Origin: Candidatus Bathyanammoxibius amoris
Lineage (GTDB): Bacteria > Planctomycetota > Brocadiia > Brocadiales > Bathyanammoxibiaceae
Assembly (NCBI GenBank): GCA_024451685.1
Contig: JAMXCW010000017.1
Location: forward strand, 1 to 43,516
Direction of reading: 5' to 3'
Length of the DNA stretch: 43,516 bases
In this document: positions 22,374 to 28,983 of the stretch, one piece after another
Layout of the letters: each line of letters starts with the position of its first letter
Position numbering within the stretch: position 1 is the first letter of the stretch
The notes under the pieces: generated by a model
Database searches by the model: none
What the model saw: the letters and a program-made list of their open reading frames with translations, nothing else
Told to the model about the DNA's origin: nothing
Translations under genes and position numbers: made by a program

Positions 22374-23036
22374 TCACTTTGCAACTGCCGCCTCGGCCTC
22401 GGCACCTAAACGAGTAAGGGTATCTTCCAGCAATTTCCGGTAACGCTCCATCTCTTCTTCGCCTGCGTCCGGCGGGACCATAATCGGTTCGCCAACGGCG
22501 ATTACCACCTTCGAGAAGGGTTTCGGTATGCGGAACCCGTCCCAGCTCGGAAGCCGCCAGCAGTTGGAAAAGCCCGATGAGACGGGAAGGATGGGCTTCC
22601 CCGTCTTCTTGGCCAGAAAGATTACACCCGGCTGGACGTCTTCTCTGGGCCCTCTGGGGCCGTCCGGCGTTATCGCCAGAAAGCTGCCCTTCCGGGCCTC
22701 TCTTACAAGTTCTACCGTCGCCCTGGCCCCGCCGCGTGTGGTAGAGCCGCGAACCACCCCCAGGCCCAGACCGTTCACCACCCGCGCGATGTATTCCCCG
22801 TCGGTGTGTTCACTTATCAGCACCTTTATGTCCTGCCCCATACCCTTATACGCCATAACTAACATAGTGGAGTGCCAGAAGGCGATAATCACCTTCCCAA
22901 GCGCCCCTTCGCGGAACAGCCTGGGGCTGGTCAGCGGCCTTTCTTCTATCCTGAGCGTCCAGCACAGAAGCATTAAAACGATGGGGCCGATAAAGCCCAC
23001 CACGGCCATGTTTATGTTTCTTACGAAATCTCTCAT
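22374..23036 (-). CDS. DUF374-type lysophospholipid/lipid A acyltransferase
   Basis: A 220-residue acyltransferase-fold protein with one N-terminal membrane segment (MAVVGFIGPIVLMLLCW). Family motifs are IIAFWHSTMLVMAYKGMG (the H of the acyltransferase site), SEHTDGEYIARV, VVRGSTTRGGARA and LAITPDGPRGPREDV. DUF374 proteins are thought to add acyl chains to lipid A or to lysophospholipids at the inner membrane. It converges on rseP with 21 bases between the stops. Confidence 0.9.
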   Translation of the reverse strand: MRDFVRNINMAVVGFIGPIVLMLLCWTLRIEERPLTSPRLFREGALGKVIIAFWHSTMLVMAYKGMGQDIKVLISEHTDGEYIARVVNGLGLGVVRGSTTRGGARATVELVREARKGSFLAITPDGPRGPREDVQPGVIFLAKKTGKPILPVSSGFSNCWRLPSWDGFRIPKPFSKVVIAVGEPIMVPPDAGEEEMERYRKLLEDTLTRLGAEAEAAVAK

Positions 23037-23420
23037 CTCGCACCCACCGCCATCATCATGGATTTAACACCCTCTTGCATACGAAATTCTTTGTAGGGAC
23101 TGCCCTCGTGGCTGTCCGCGAACCCTCAAAACGACATCTGTGCAACGCTTTTCATCGGTCTCAAACGTCCGTCGCTCAAAGTATTTACCATGTCTTTCAC
23201 AACCACACAAGCCATAATTTCGTATTCGCCTTGACTTGCACATTCAAAAGTATAAAATAACTGACACCTTCCATGCCGTGCTCGCTATAAGGTTTATACG
23301 ACAACATAAGATGTACTCAACTCTTGCCCTGTAAAACACCTGACAGGAGTGTTCCCTCTATACTAGCGGAGGTAGATGTGGAATCTGAAGCTGCATATCA
23401 TTTTGACTTAGGGAGACCCT
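23037..23420. other. Intergenic region at the left edge of the AT-rich island
   Basis: The composition changes across this region from GC-rich on the left to AT-rich on the right. A degraded GTAGGGAC-type repeat (23094-23121) lies at the left. A promoter for the 105-aa gene is listed separately. An 11-codon frame, ATG 23376 to TAG 23411, follows GGAGG (23368-23372) at only three bases and is in frame with the next gene. It may be chance or a leader peptide. No other gene is visible. Confidence 0.55.
23231..23258 (+). promoter_or_regulatory. Promoter for the AT-rich island genes
   Basis: TTGACT (23231-23236), 16 bases, TAAAAT (23253-23258). It lies about 160 bases upstream of the first gene of the island. 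Confidence 0.4.
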
Positions 23421-23738
23421 ATGTCGAAGAAGACAAAAATGTATGACAAAATACAAAAATCATTACTTGATTATGTTAAAACACTTAAGTTGCCTGTAGA
23501 AATGGAAAACTTTCATGCAATGGACTATATCAAACAAGATTTAAAAGAGACTATTCCCTTCAAAATGTTTATGGTAGTTCTGTATGATACTATACTAAGC
23601 GAACAAGTGACTGATGATACTCCGTTGATTAACAATGATTTGAGTATTGAAAATAGAGGATATGACAGAGTTATCGGTGTCAACGAAAACGTATTGAAAA
23701 AATACAACCTGACTTTTGACGGTGCGAGACTTAAATAG
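23421..23738 (+). CDS. Hypothetical protein (105 aa) upstream of Mre11/SbcD
   Basis: A small soluble protein with no recognisable domain. The N-terminal half is basic and helical (MSKKTKMYDKIQKSLLDYVK), followed by a hydrophobic strand or helix (FKMFMVVLYDTILSEQV). A mixed C-terminus ends in LTFDGARLK. The codon use is AT-rich like the two genes that follow. GGGAG (23411-23415) lies five bases before the ATG. A 63-base gap separates it from the nuclease gene, so it may be a partner protein of the Mre11-Rad50 pair, which is inference from position only. Confidence 0.6.
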   Translation: MSKKTKMYDKIQKSLLDYVKTLKLPVEMENFHAMDYIKQDLKETIPFKMFMVVLYDTILSEQVTDDTPLINNDLSIENRGYDRVIGVNENVLKKYNLTFDGARLK

Positions 23739-23801
23739 TGTGTAATATTTTGTATACTAGCACTTGTCTTATACGTGTAACATAACTCACGATTACGGCA
23801 T

Positions 23802-24929
23802 ATGAAACTAATTCACTTTTCTGATACACATTTAGGTTTTGCCGATTACACAAAAATAGACCCTGAAATGGGAATTAATCAAAGAGAGGCCGATGTCTAT
23901 CGGGCTTTCTCTCAAGTTACTGAGTATATTGAAAAAAACCCTCCAGATATTATAATACATTCTGGCGACCTTTTTGAAACTCCCAGACCCTCTAATAGAG
24001 CCATCAACTTTGCTTTACGGGAGCTCTTTAAGTTATCTCAGATTGGAATCCCTCTAATCCTAATATCTGGTAACCACTCCGCACCGCGTGTGAAGAGTTC
24101 CAGCTCTATCTTCGAAGCGTTTAGAATCTTCGACAACGTTTACCCGGTATATAGCTCAAAATACGAGGAAATAGTTGTAAAAGATATTGCCTTTCATTGC
24201 ATTCCTCACGTACCTACTGAAGAAGAACTTCATGCCGCTTTTGCGAGCATCAGGCCAAGCTTAAAAGCTAAATACAACGTAATAGTTTCTCACACTGGCG
24301 TAACCGCGGATGTTCAATATAAAATGGGAGAATTCAATGAGTTGATGACCCCCTTTGCAACTCTTGCAGAAAAGAAGAACTTTGACTACATTGCCCTGGG
24401 GCATTATCACAAGTATCACACGCTTACAAAAAATGCTTGTTATTCTGGATCTACAGAGCGTTTCAGCTTCCGCGAAGCAGACGAGAAAAAAGGATTTATC
24501 GAAGCTGATCTTAGCAATGGAAGATTTAAATTTATTCCTATAACCGTTCGAGAGATGGCAATATTTAATCCTATAGATTGCCAAGGTTTGAATGTTAAAG
24601 ACATAGAATCTGAGGTTGAGATTCAAACTAAAGGAAAAACAAAAGACAAAATCGTTCAAATCACGTTTGATAATATTCAACGACACCTATACGTTGAACT
24701 AAACTTTCAGCGGCTGAAAAAAATAACCGCAGACGCACTCTATGCCAAATGGGTAATAAACTGGGCTGCCGAAAAAGGAATGGGTGTAATTCCAACAGCT
24801 ATAGGAACACTACCTGCAGAGTTTGAGAATTTTCTACACCTTCAAAAGTTCAAAGATTTAAACAAAGAAAAGCTTTTAAGAATGGGCCTGTCTTATCTAT
24901 CCAGTGTACAAGAGCAAGAGGAAGCATAA
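23802..24929 (+). CDS. sbcD: Mre11/SbcD-family DNA double-strand-break nuclease
   Basis: Manganese-dependent nuclease subunit that acts with a Rad50/SbcC ATPase on DNA ends and hairpins. It has 375 residues. All phosphodiesterase motifs are present: FSDTHLGF (Asp8, His10), HSGDLFE (Asp56), SGNHS (Asn91, His92), VSHTGV (His164) and ALGHYHKYH (His201, His203). The gene has AT-rich codon use unlike its surroundings. Its TAA directly abuts the ATG of the next gene, so the two are translationally coupled. Archaeal-type Mre11 or bacterial SbcD cannot be separated by eye. Confidence 0.93.
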   Translation: MKLIHFSDTHLGFADYTKIDPEMGINQREADVYRAFSQVTEYIEKNPPDIIIHSGDLFETPRPSNRAINFALRELFKLSQIGIPLILISGNHSAPRVKSSSSIFEAFRIFDNVYPVYSSKYEEIVVKDIAFHCIPHVPTEEELHAAFASIRPSLKAKYNVIVSHTGVTADVQYKMGEFNELMTPFATLAEKKNFDYIALGHYHKYHTLTKNACYSGSTERFSFREADEKKGFIEADLSNGRFKFIPITVREMAIFNPIDCQGLNVKDIESEVEIQTKGKTKDKIVQITFDNIQRHLYVELNFQRLKKITADALYAKWVINWAAEKGMGVIPTAIGTLPAEFENFLHLQKFKDLNKEKLLRMGLSYLSSVQEQEEA

Positions 24930-27341
24930 ATGTTCTTAAGGACCCTCAAACTAAGAAACTACAGGAAATTCAGAAATGAAATGATCGAATTCCCTGAAGG
25001 TGTAATTGGCATTATTGGTCCTAATGGCGTTGGGAAGTCTTCTATTTTAGAAGCTATAGGATGGGCACTCTACGGTAACGTGATGGCGCGAACAGAAAAA
25101 CATGAGGTAAAAAGTCAGAATGCTACCGCGAACGAAGACTGCCGTGTTGAACTTGAGTTTGATATGACTGGACACTGTTATAAGGTTATAAGGGAACTCA
25201 AAGGGGGAAATGCTTTTTCCAACGCTCTGATTTATGCAAATGGAAACTGCGAGCCCGAAGCACAGAGAGATAGTGGTGTGAATGAATACCTTAAGAACCT
25301 TCTTGGGATGGACTATGTGACCTTCTTAAGGACAATCTATGCCAAGCAAAAAGACCTCGCTGCTCTTTCTCTGTTGCGCCCAGAAGAGAGGAAAAAAGTC
25401 ATACGGCGGATGCTCAACATTGACCGTATTGACATTGCAATTACCCAGATAAGATCCGACAAAAGACAGAAAGAGGATTACATAAAAGGTATCGAAATAA
25501 GTCTTGAAGATGTTGAAGAGTTTAAAGCAAGGCGGAAGAAAATATTGAGTGAACAGGTGGAAATAAAAAAGAGTATCTCTGAACTGAATGCGACAGTTAG
25601 CTTGCTTTTAGAGGAAAGGGTAAAAATAAAGAAAGAAAAGAGTATTCAAGATCAAAAATATAAAACCTTCAATGAACTTGGCAAGCAAAAAGCACTGCTT
25701 CATGAAAAACAATCATCTTTGAAGAAACAACTTGAAGAATGCTTCAATGACAAAAAGGAACTAGAACAAAAGAACAAAGAGTTGAAGAACCTTAAGCCTA
25801 AAGAGCAAGAGTACACCAAAATAAAAGCCGAAAATAAAAAACAAGAAGAGCTGCGCCTTAAATATCAGGCCAAAGTGGAGCTAAAGGAAAATGTTTCTGA
25901 AAAGAGAGAAGACATAAAAGATAGGGAGAAAAAATTAAGTGCAATAATGGAGAAGCTGAAGGCCTTTGAAAATGTGGATAAGGAATTTAATAAAATAGAG
26001 AAAGACATGCGCTCCAGAGAGCAAAAGAGAAGAATTATTGAAAAAAGAGCTAAAAAAAATCATGGAGAGTCAGAAGTTTTAAAATCAAAAATCGAGGAGC
26101 TTTCCTTAAAGAAAAACGATATTTCCAAGCTTGGCCCAGGTAGCAAATGTCCCACCTGTTTCAGAGAATTGGGGAAGACCCACCCTGATATAATTCGGCA
26201 CATTGAAAGCGAGAAAAAAGCTTATCGCAAGGAACTTGAAGTAATAAATCAGCAAAAATATGGGATCGACAAAAAACACAAAAACATTCTGGGAGAATTA
26301 GATGCGCTCGTGGGGAAAAAGAATAAAATAATCCAAAAGCTGAAGAAAAAATCAGAATTGGACCAATCGCTAAAGGAGCAACGAGATGAGCTGAAAAATG
26401 TTGAGTTAAATCTAAGTAAAAACGAAGAAAAGCTAAAAAAACTAAAGGAAATTAAGTTTGACAAGAAAATTTATGAACAACTAAGTAAGAGCTTTGAGAA
26501 GTTATCGAAGATTATGGAGAACGTTATTGCGTTAAGGAACGAGGTGCAGAGGATTCCCAAATTACTAGAAAAAACAAAATCACTAAAAATAGAAATTACT
26601 AAATCTGATAATGCCCTCAAAGTCAATAATCAAGAGCTTAAGGAATTGGGTTTCGACGGAGAAACGTATAATTATGTTAAAACTAAGTACGAAGAAGTCT
26701 CCGAAAGACTCAAAGGGCAGCAAATGAAACTTCAGGGGAAAAAACATCAAATGGAACTCTCCAAACAGGAGCTTGTAAGTGTCAATAAAGATATTAGGCG
26801 TCAAGAAAAATACAGGAAGGAAATAAAAAAGTCTGAAATCGATCTACAATATCTACAAAGGTTGGAAAGCCTTATAGAAGATTTTCGATTAGAATTGACT
26901 GGTAGAATTCGCCCACTACTTGAGTCCAAGGCTTCCTATCTCTTTAACGAAGTCACGGAGGGCAGATATCCTGCGATGGAACTTGACGAGAACTACGAGG
27001 TATCTATTCTTGACGGCAATCAGGCTTATCGGTTGAAGAGATTTTCAGGGGGAGAAGAGGACCTCGCTAACCTCTGTCTGAGGATCGCGATGTCTCAGGT
27101 CATTGCTGAACGCAGCGGCGGTGCAGAGATAAACTTCATCGCTTTAGACGAAATATTTGGCAGCCAGGACGAGAAGCGAAAGCAGAGCATCCTAAATTCC
27201 ATTAATAGGCTTTCTTCTCAGTTTCGCCAGATATTTCTAATCACTCATATCGAAGACATTAAAGAGATGTTTTATCGGGTCTTAAGAATCGAAGAAAACC
27301 CAGTAACTAAAGAGAGCAGTATTATTATTGACCAGTTATGA
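24930..27341 (+). CDS. sbcC: Rad50/SbcC-family SMC-like ATPase
   Basis: ATPase partner of Mre11/SbcD. It has 803 residues, shorter than E. coli SbcC (1048) and closer to archaeal Rad50. Walker A is GPNGVGKSS (about residues 30-38). A long coiled coil (about 170-640) is interrupted by a zinc hook, Cys407-Pro-Thr-Cys410, in SKCPTCFRELGKTHPD. The ABC signature is FSGGEEDLANLCLRIAMS and the Walker B region is INFIALDEIFGSQDEKRKQS. All catalytic parts are intact, so the complex should be active. AT-rich codon use sets it apart from neighbours. It converges on DUF2851, with 61 bases between the stops. Confidence 0.94.
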   Translation: MFLRTLKLRNYRKFRNEMIEFPEGVIGIIGPNGVGKSSILEAIGWALYGNVMARTEKHEVKSQNATANEDCRVELEFDMTGHCYKVIRELKGGNAFSNALIYANGNCEPEAQRDSGVNEYLKNLLGMDYVTFLRTIYAKQKDLAALSLLRPEERKKVIRRMLNIDRIDIAITQIRSDKRQKEDYIKGIEISLEDVEEFKARRKKILSEQVEIKKSISELNATVSLLLEERVKIKKEKSIQDQKYKTFNELGKQKALLHEKQSSLKKQLEECFNDKKELEQKNKELKNLKPKEQEYTKIKAENKKQEELRLKYQAKVELKENVSEKREDIKDREKKLSAIMEKLKAFENVDKEFNKIEKDMRSREQKRRIIEKRAKKNHGESEVLKSKIEELSLKKNDISKLGPGSKCPTCFRELGKTHPDIIRHIESEKKAYRKELEVINQQKYGIDKKHKNILGELDALVGKKNKIIQKLKKKSELDQSLKEQRDELKNVELNLSKNEEKLKKLKEIKFDKKIYEQLSKSFEKLSKIMENVIALRNEVQRIPKLLEKTKSLKIEITKSDNALKVNNQELKELGFDGETYNYVKTKYEEVSERLKGQQMKLQGKKHQMELSKQELVSVNKDIRRQEKYRKEIKKSEIDLQYLQRLESLIEDFRLELTGRIRPLLESKASYLFNEVTEGRYPAMELDENYEVSILDGNQAYRLKRFSGGEEDLANLCLRIAMSQVIAERSGGAEINFIALDEIFGSQDEKRKQSILNSINRLSSQFRQIFLITHIEDIKEMFYRVLRIEENPVTKESSIIIDQL

Positions 27342-27402
27342 TAGGACAAGCACACACAAAGTAATACGGCCACCTACCGAAACGCATTGTTCAATATATT
27401 CC

Positions 27403-28983
27403 TTAAGCAGTCCCTCCTCTTGCTCTTCCATCCACCGCCATAAAAAACCCGCAGCGGTCGCAGCTTATGTCCTTCCGGTGGCAAAAGTCATGGAATATCT
27501 GATGAAGCCCCTGCTGCCTGCGGGCATTGTTCACTACTTTGGACAACCCCTCCGGCAGTACCCTGTTCGTCATAAACTTGACAACGCTGTCTGTAGAACA
27601 CTTCCGGTGGCGCTTGTATGCCTCGTGCAACAGCGCTTCAAACCCTGAATCTTGATTTTTTCTGGCATACGTTAGAAGAAGCGGGAGGACGGCGTTTATA
27701 AAAATAACTGCCGCTCGCTCCCCCCCTATCAGTTTCGCCGGGGCCTTCAGCCTCTTGCCCCCAGGTGTCAGGTAGTATGACCAGAACTCGTCTTCTAGAC
27801 CCGAAAAATAGGCTTCAATCTCTCTTGCAACCGTTGAGGCGGCGTTCGTCTTCTTACTCCTTGTCTCTTCAAGGATGGTAAGCAGGTCCTTAAAAATTCC
27901 TCCCTCAAGGCTCCCGGCCAACAGGTGGCTCATGGCGGCAATTCGTCTATGGGGCTGGTTTAACGGCCTGACACCTCCCCAGCGCCAGTCGCCATACCGC
28001 ATCGGCTCCTTGTCCCACTTACACCTGATAACTTCATCCCAAAGGTGGGAAACTCTCTCGAGGTATTCTCTTGTCTCCCGGTCATAACCGTCTCCGGCCT
28101 TCCCCTGCCAGCCATATAAAACACCTCCCGCACCCAGGAGCATTGACTGTATCCAAACGTGCTTGTCTGACGGGTCTCGCTGAGTACCGCCTGTACCTGT
28201 CGGTATAAAACTCCTCAGGTCTTCAAGTGGCACTAATGCCGCAAGCTGCGAAAATTGCAACACGTTGCTCTTATACCCCATCGTCCTCATGAGGGCCTCA
28301 TAAAGCACCTGTTCATACGTTTTTTCGTCCAGGTATTCCTCAAACCTTCTCGACTTGGAGAGTATCCGTTCGTCGCCCGCATGGTCCAGTATACGCTCAA
28401 GCGTCTCCGTGTGTATGCCTCCTTTTGCAAGGATGTCGCAGCAAGGGCCCGCAACGTATTTTGCAGTGTCGGGATATTCCGTGAGTCCATCCAGAAGCCC
28501 AGGGACGTCCTCCGGTGGTACAGTTATGTATTTGGACAGCGCCAGCTGCGGCAATTTTTTGTTTGTTACATCACTCACGTAGCCCTGGGAGATGTCGTTC
28601 CACATGACCACGTGAAGGCACACGTTTTTATATCCCTCTTGTTTGTGGTGGCCGTGGCGTTTCCAGTCGGTGGCGTTGATATGGACCTCGACGTCTCCCT
28701 TTATCCTCCCCACACCTTCCAGCAATATCTCGGCATCCAGGTGGTCGGGGCCGCCTTCTACGTTCCATCTCCCCGGTGAGATTACCTCAAGCCGCGCATT
28801 ATCCTCCGTATACAATCTTGACGTGTCAAAATGCCCGCCAAACCACAGACAGCGCACCATCTCCTCGCTTATCCTCCTCGTCGCACCCCCGTAACCCCGG
28901 TCCCGGGGTTCACTGACGCCTGCCTTGCCCCGTACCAGAGTGGCGTAATTGTTGGAGAAACCTTGTGTTGGTTTGTATGCCAT
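27403..28983 (-). CDS. DUF2851 family protein
   Basis: A 526-residue soluble protein with the DUF2851 block at residues 45-125: CLWFGGHFDTSRLYTEDNAR, WNVEGGPDHLDAEILLE, KGDVEVHINATDWKRHGHHK and YKNVCLHVVMWND. Its function is not established. The pattern D80, then E99-x-H101, after a GPD turn and before W-x-x-H-x-H, looks like a nuclease-type metal centre of PD-(D/E)xK shape with His in place of Lys. That reading is inference. Composition is GC-richer than the adjacent Mre11-Rad50 genes, so it may predate them. It lies on the opposite strand and is separate from gyrA by about 110 bases. Confidence 0.9.
   Translation of the reverse strand: MAYKPTQGFSNNYATLVRGKAGVSEPRDRGYGGATRRISEEMVRCLWFGGHFDTSRLYTEDNARLEVISPGRWNVEGGPDHLDAEILLEGVGRIKGDVEVHINATDWKRHGHHKQEGYKNVCLHVVMWNDISQGYVSDVTNKKLPQLALSKYITVPPEDVPGLLDGLTEYPDTAKYVAGPCCDILAKGGIHTETLERILDHAGDERILSKSRRFEEYLDEKTYEQVLYEALMRTMGYKSNVLQFSQLAALVPLEDLRSFIPTGTGGTQRDPSDKHVWIQSMLLGAGGVLYGWQGKAGDGYDRETREYLERVSHLWDEVIRCKWDKEPMRYGDWRWGGVRPLNQPHRRIAAMSHLLAGSLEGGIFKDLLTILEETRSKKTNAASTVAREIEAYFSGLEDEFWSYYLTPGGKRLKAPAKLIGGERAAVIFINAVLPLLLTYARKNQDSGFEALLHEAYKRHRKCSTDSVVKFMTNRVLPEGLSKVVNNARRQQGLHQIFHDFCHRKDISCDRCGFFMAVDGRARGGTA

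Follow-up and report, generated by a model that had tools for sequence, protein, structure and literature searches.

The 43,516-nucleotide window analyzed here is contig C17 of the 2.07-Mb draft genome of Candidatus Bathyanammoxibius amoris (G000; 26 contigs, 95% completeness). Its AT-rich segment from 23.1 to 27.4 kb is, judged from the sequence, an insertion between the genes for a DUF2851 and a DUF374 protein. It probably represents a laterally acquired, self-contained Mre11-Rad50 complex of the SbcCD type that is accessory to the host, serving mainly in repair and only incidentally in attack on linear foreign DNA. Enzymes of this type are well known and the complex is an ordinary one; the acquisition route is unusual. 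The features of the insert and its flanks are listed in Table 1.

Table 1. Positions in the window of the insert, its genes and the flanking features
Feature	Coordinates	Strand	Remarks
Flanking host gene, DUF374	22374..23036	-	PF04028, 4e-26; 72% identical in G002
Imperfect direct repeat, left copy (DUF374 start; remnant of DUF2851 tail)	23036..23053	.	15/18 identical
Dispersed host-genome repeat, 34 bp	23090..23123	.	Left edge of foreign-looking DNA
105-aa orphan ORF within AT-rich insert	23421..23738	+	Probably coding
mre11 (sbcD-like) nuclease, 375 aa, complete	23802..24929	+	Phosphoesterase, capping region, C-terminal helices
rad50 (sbcC-like) coiled-coil ATPase, 803 aa	24930..27341	+	Zinc hook CPTC at residue 407
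Flanking host gene, DUF2851	27403..28983	-	PF11013, 3e-55; present in 8/9 family genomes, own included
Imperfect direct repeat, right copy, in 3' end of DUF2851 gene	27424..27441	.	

The insert and its site in related genomes

The GC content of the window falls from ~0.55 to 0.34–0.39 between 23.1 and 27.4 kb. Positions 23124–27402 have 38.0% GC as compared with 54.5% for positions 1–22373 plus 28984 to the end, and the minimum for equal-length stretches of the window outside the insert is 50.3%. The sharp drop, with recovery by about 27.4 kb, that an earlier note on this DNA had described is therefore real, with the start of the AT-rich part corrected to ~23.12 kb because the 34 bp that precede this position are a dispersed host repeat, of which the host genome has eight further copies with a match of 84–94% (query positions 41–74). 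The insert yielded no mobility gene, and the inverted repeats found do not bracket it; a transposon or phage carrier was rejected on these grounds. The imperfect 18-bp direct repeat at its two ends might be a target-site duplication, a reading that is suggestive only because 14 of 2000 random flank pairs equal its 15/18 identity.

Among the eight other genomes of the family, G002 and G005 have nothing between the two flanking genes, the DUF2851 stop and the DUF374 start overlapping as ATGA. The genes are separated by a gap of ~150 bp in G001 and by ~1.1 kb in G004, where the intervening DNA contains a different, 201-aa ORF that has no Pfam match. In the remaining four (G003, G006, G007, and G008), the genes were not found adjoining, and these genomes are hence uninformative on the site. 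The low-GC insert is not shared by the relatives. The 201-aa ORF of G004 (contig C98, L071:829–1431) is AT-looking and has, by eye, a PD-x(n)-ExK-like pattern; because of this pattern, the DUF2851/DUF374 intergenic site may be a repeated recipient of nuclease genes.

Mre11 and Rad50

The earlier note had described a coupled, intact Mre11-Rad50 pair that retains its catalytic motifs, including a CPTC zinc hook, and both points hold: the ORFs of 375 and 803 aa are complete and adjoining, and the motifs are kept, with a variant in motif III of Mre11. Mre11 matches Metallophos (Pfam PF00149, 4e-16) and passes the sbcd subfamily cut-off of TIGR00619 (83.6 vs. 77.65 bits). Its motifs are DTHLG at residue 8, GDLF at 55, GNHS at 90, SHTGV at 163, and GHYH at 200. 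Residues D8, H10, D56, N91, H92, H164, H201, and H203 are invariant in all 22 aligned relatives, and we take these positions (Asp, His, Asp, Asn-His, His, and His-x-His) to be metal-binding. Motif III is GNHS and not the usual GNHD of most SbcDs; it retains the Asn and the His, and the Mre11 subfamily of the window most often has Ser at this position. The AF2 model of Mre11 has a mean pLDDT of 90.5, the last 55 residues being less sure (pLDDT of 51–84 by block), and its best Foldseek match is Mre11 of M. jannaschii in the Rad50 complex (3av0 chain A, E 1.4e-19), with an alignment of 389 columns and a fold that is alike over the full length, the capping and the Rad50-binding C-terminal regions included.

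Rad50 matches PF13476 (AAA_23, 2.3e-21) and PF13558 (SbcC_Walker_B, 8e-7), and its best PDB match is 5f3w Rad50 (1.3e-32). The single chain comprises the Walker A motif GPNGVGKS (residue 30), the CPTC hook (407), the signature SGGE (706), the Walker B motif ALDEIF (738), and the H-loop THIED (772). The first base of rad50 directly follows the mre11 stop; a 4-base overlap between the two genes is found in 12 of the 27 loci with both genes called (L079, L080, L081, L082, L086, L087, L096, L101, L104, L107, L109, and L116). Both proteins score far below the curated species-group equivalogs, and the broad sbcD subfamily cut-off is the sole one passed.

The host genome

A single SbcD and a single Rad50 of this type are present in the host genome. 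Its remaining AAA_23 matches are a 1234-aa ORF of SMC size, two smaller ORFs, and a phage-like fragment where a contig ends. The earlier note had raised the question of a second sbcCD on this chromosome; none was found in the draft genome, where its 26 contigs and 95% completeness mean that the absence is not absolute. Among the nine genomes of the family, the sbcD cut-off is passed by the host genome alone, with one weak match in G006, and the eight others are without an Mre11-Rad50 pair. A PDDEXK_1 match is present in all nine, and neighboring AddB/AddA-like ORFs of ~1,100–1,300 aa (named by reading) are present in seven, including the host, which has them at C5:17968–22346. Because this AddAB-like pair is resident, the acquired Mre11-Rad50 would be accessory, supplementing the resident pathway. 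NurA was found in none of the 10 genomes searched, the draft host genome (where absence is not absolute) included, and in 7 of 14 controls.

At a contig end with phage-like genes (G000:C6:1–1449, L003), the host genome also has a YqaJ/RecB-like 318-aa ORF followed by the N terminus of an SMC-like ATPase, which is truncated where the contig stops (both named by eye).

Phylogeny and origin

In a Rad50 search of 59 genomes of the same order, the host's own included, the others gave just short or weak SMC/SbcC-like matches (next best E 2.6e-6). Besides the host's own copy, the near relatives of Mre11 among 392 genomes of the same phylum are those of G359 (44%) and G343 (33%). From a scan of named genomes, the best 80 of 549 confirmed Mre11 loci were kept, and the top 30 of these, with 28–51% identity, are from archaea (Euryarchaeota, Thermoplasmatota, and Methanophagales) and bacteria (Actinomycetota, a Syntrophobacterales chromosome, Campylobacterota, Saprospiraceae, Bipolaricaulota, Zixibacteria, Gracilibacteria, Gemmatimonadetes, and Chloroflexia).

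In an Mre11 tree of 112 rows, the window falls within a subfamily set of 36 rows (SH-aLRT 96; overlapping loci bring two genes in twice) that crosses domains, with archaea, Campylobacterota, Actinomycetota, Thermodesulfobacteriota, and Saprospiraceae. Twenty-two SbcDs of the host phylum make up most of a separate 23-row set (96), and five more rows of this phylum lie elsewhere. A quick mixture-model tree of 67 rows agrees, with 95–98 for the subfamily and 99 for the host group. An AU test with 44 rows rejected the grouping of the window Mre11 with the host-phylum SbcDs (p = 0.006). Within the subfamily, the 112-row tree groups the window with L081 and G359 (94), an inner grouping that is weak (58 or less) in the mixture-model tree. 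In the Rad50 tree, the window and L081 form a pair (96) that neighbors L057, which is from G359, and L087 (83). This tree is compatible with the Mre11 tree, and therefore the two genes most likely moved together.

On this sequence evidence, the pair is a lateral acquisition from outside the host lineage, as the earlier note had proposed: the trees, the AU test, and the empty sites in relatives all bear this out, and Mre11 is not placed with the host lineage. The alternative is that the pair was inherited vertically within the host phylum, was lost from every relative, and drifted toward AT independently; it could point to G359, a member of the same phylum, as the holder of the nearest Mre11 by identity. 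It would have to accommodate just two close copies besides the host's own in 392 genomes, flanks that overlap in two family members, the outcome of the AU test, and the sharp GC borders, and is highly improbable. A viral origin was also considered and rejected; neither Mre11 alone nor an alignment found a relative in scans of viral contigs. Among the 20 listed of 548 records, the phage relatives of Mre11 are <30% identical.

The 105-aa ORF

The 105-aa ORF has an in-frame codon score of 0.075 per codon as compared with −0.083 or less in the other five frames, and none of 1000 shuffles scored as high; by eye, its ribosome-binding sequence is plausible. The earlier note had called the protein unrecognized, and indeed four libraries (Pfam, NCBIfam, PADLOC, and PHROGs) gave no family match at E ≤ 1. 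No credible homologue was found in collections of 392 and 395 genomes or in phages, plasmids, and viral contigs. Two weak matches, both named by reading of the ORF, were set aside: that to an RND transporter (E 0.0077 per genome, 392 genomes) is at about the chance level, and that to a CheV-like protein (E 5e-4 and 0.0012 per genome, 395 genomes), with 19–20% identity and an internal stop, is likewise attributed to chance. Among the called genes at 45 loci around related or generic mre11, the window included, the one match was the protein itself. Its AF2 model is uninformative (pLDDT 40).

The 9-mer TATACTAGC occurs in the window only at 23359–23367 and 23753–23761, upstream of the 105-aa ORF and of mre11, respectively. 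The expected number of copies is 0.19, and two copies were reached in 2 of 100 shuffles. It is possible that TATACTAGC is a shared promoter or operator of the two genes.

The suggestion of the earlier note that the 105-aa protein could be a dedicated partner found no support. A third subunit or regulator traveling with the pair would fit the location of the ORF in the same insert, 63 bp before mre11 and in the same orientation, its coding signal, and the two occurrences of the 9-mer. However, no similar protein was found around the relatives of mre11 or in the viral contigs, phages, and plasmids searched, the weak genome matches are about what chance gives for that many genomes, and the model has low confidence, so that such a role is improbable. 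Most likely, the ORF is a passenger with no relation to the pair, or at most a regulator specific to this lineage.

Relatives of the pair and their neighborhoods

The compact cross-domain pairs related to that of the window comprise L081, L057, L079, L080, L082, L085–L088, the Campylobacterota copies, and a copy on an Arcobacter plasmid (record CP134857). The neighbors of this subfamily are by Pfam mostly housekeeping genes (peptidase, uracil-DNA glycosylase, aconitase, exchangers, and cytochromes). L088 adjoins paired OLD-TOPRIM and UvrD genes, which PADLOC assigns to Gabija, and L057 adjoins HNH and HTH genes. In a PADLOC scan of 116 neighboring ORFs of 18 relatives and 116 of 22 generic SbcD loci, 109 families matched near the relatives versus 36 near the generic loci; these are families and not members, so that they give no rate, and the 109 are inflated by the many models for Gabija. 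No common effector or sensor partner was found among the neighbors of the relatives.

The plasmid copy, L056 (CP134857, 46017–49494), neighbors a large helicase-like protein that matches the PADLOC candidate PDC-S68, a WD40 gene, and a DEAD-box helicase, and a CARF gene lies a few kb from the pair. L083 and L084, of Methanophagales, are close Mre11 relatives without an adjoining Rad50 match; other genes follow instead, those of L083 encoding 293, 319, and 356 aa. L103, of Gracilibacteria, is a 35% Mre11 match in a region where table 11 gives no long ORFs; the probable reason is that Gracilibacteria read TGA as an amino acid.

Repair and defense

By analogy with the family, the pair most likely acts as an ATP-gated nuclease on DNA ends that are broken, form hairpins, or are blocked by protein. 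As far as the known biochemistry of the family applies, two Rad50 heads would bind ATP and DNA ends, the zinc hook would pair the Rad50 coiled coils, and Mre11, as a manganese phosphoesterase, would cut ends of these kinds. The cut ends would be fed to the resident AddAB-like helicase-nuclease and to recombination. The host would use the complex for repair first, and attack on linear foreign DNA would be incidental.

A module dedicated to defense against phages or plasmids, recognizing linear foreign DNA ends and with repair secondary, would be in keeping with the sporadic, mobile distribution of the relatives, including the Arcobacter plasmid, and with the Gabija-type genes beside L088 and the HNH and HTH genes beside L057. 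E. coli SbcCD is described in PMC12624138 as acting as a phage defense that is countered by TelN, and a review treats Rad50 complexes as sensors of linear DNA ends (PMC10586767). Against this, most of the neighbors tested with Pfam are housekeeping genes, PADLOC matches occur near generic SbcD loci as well, and the relatives have no effector or sensor partner in common; a dedicated defense module is unlikely. A bolder proposal, for which the odds are long, is that the compact subfamily passes between bacteria and archaea as a bare cassette of two genes that is mainly a mobile immunity against DNA ends, and that it came here, into a lineage otherwise reliant on AddAB, with the 105-aa protein as a fast-evolving regulator that keeps the pair off chromosomal ends.

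With repair as the favored main role, the pair would be a core DNA-repair machine carried as portable accessory cargo between domains into a lineage without its own copy, and a natural experiment in what a cell already equipped with AddAB gains from Mre11-Rad50. A bare two-gene cassette that hops between bacteria and archaea is worth following.

Comparison with known systems

No paper on this Mre11-Rad50 subfamily was found by title or abstract in the open-access literature, the scope of the search. The archaeal Mre11-Rad50 complexes of M. jannaschii and P. furiosus rank with the best relatives of solved structure in sequence and, for Mre11, in fold, and they share with the window pair the CPTC hook, the ABC halves, and the full domain order of Mre11. 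They differ in that identity over Mre11 is ~22%, and the window pair scores far below all curated cut-offs of the archaeal equivalogs (187 vs. 700 for PRK03918). The archaeal end-resection set is Mre11-Rad50-HerA-NurA, and NurA was not found in the host genome. Bacterial SbcCD is the same kind of enzyme, and the window Mre11 is above the TIGR00619 subfamily cut-off; in contrast, the window Rad50 has 803 aa and 111 bits as compared with the TIGR00618 cut-off of 478.5, and the window Mre11 lies outside the clade of the host phylum's SbcD.

The Mre11/Rad50 fusions of viruses and plasmids have a sporadic, patchy spread that PMC3175470 attributes to mobile DNA, whereas the window pair consists of two separate ORFs. 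LmuB of Lamassu is, like the window protein, a Rad50-like ATPase (PADLOC LmuB, 75 bits), but LmuA and LmuC were not recognized beside the window Rad50, where Mre11 is found instead. The SMC variants that PMC12153180 describes are hinge-less and are not the subfamily of the window pair. The compact cross-domain pairs, in none of which the 105-aa ORF was found and whose loci range from 24 to 64% GC, resemble the window pair in having an Mre11 of ~370–420 aa, a Rad50 of mostly 700–880 aa, and genes that mostly adjoin or overlap.
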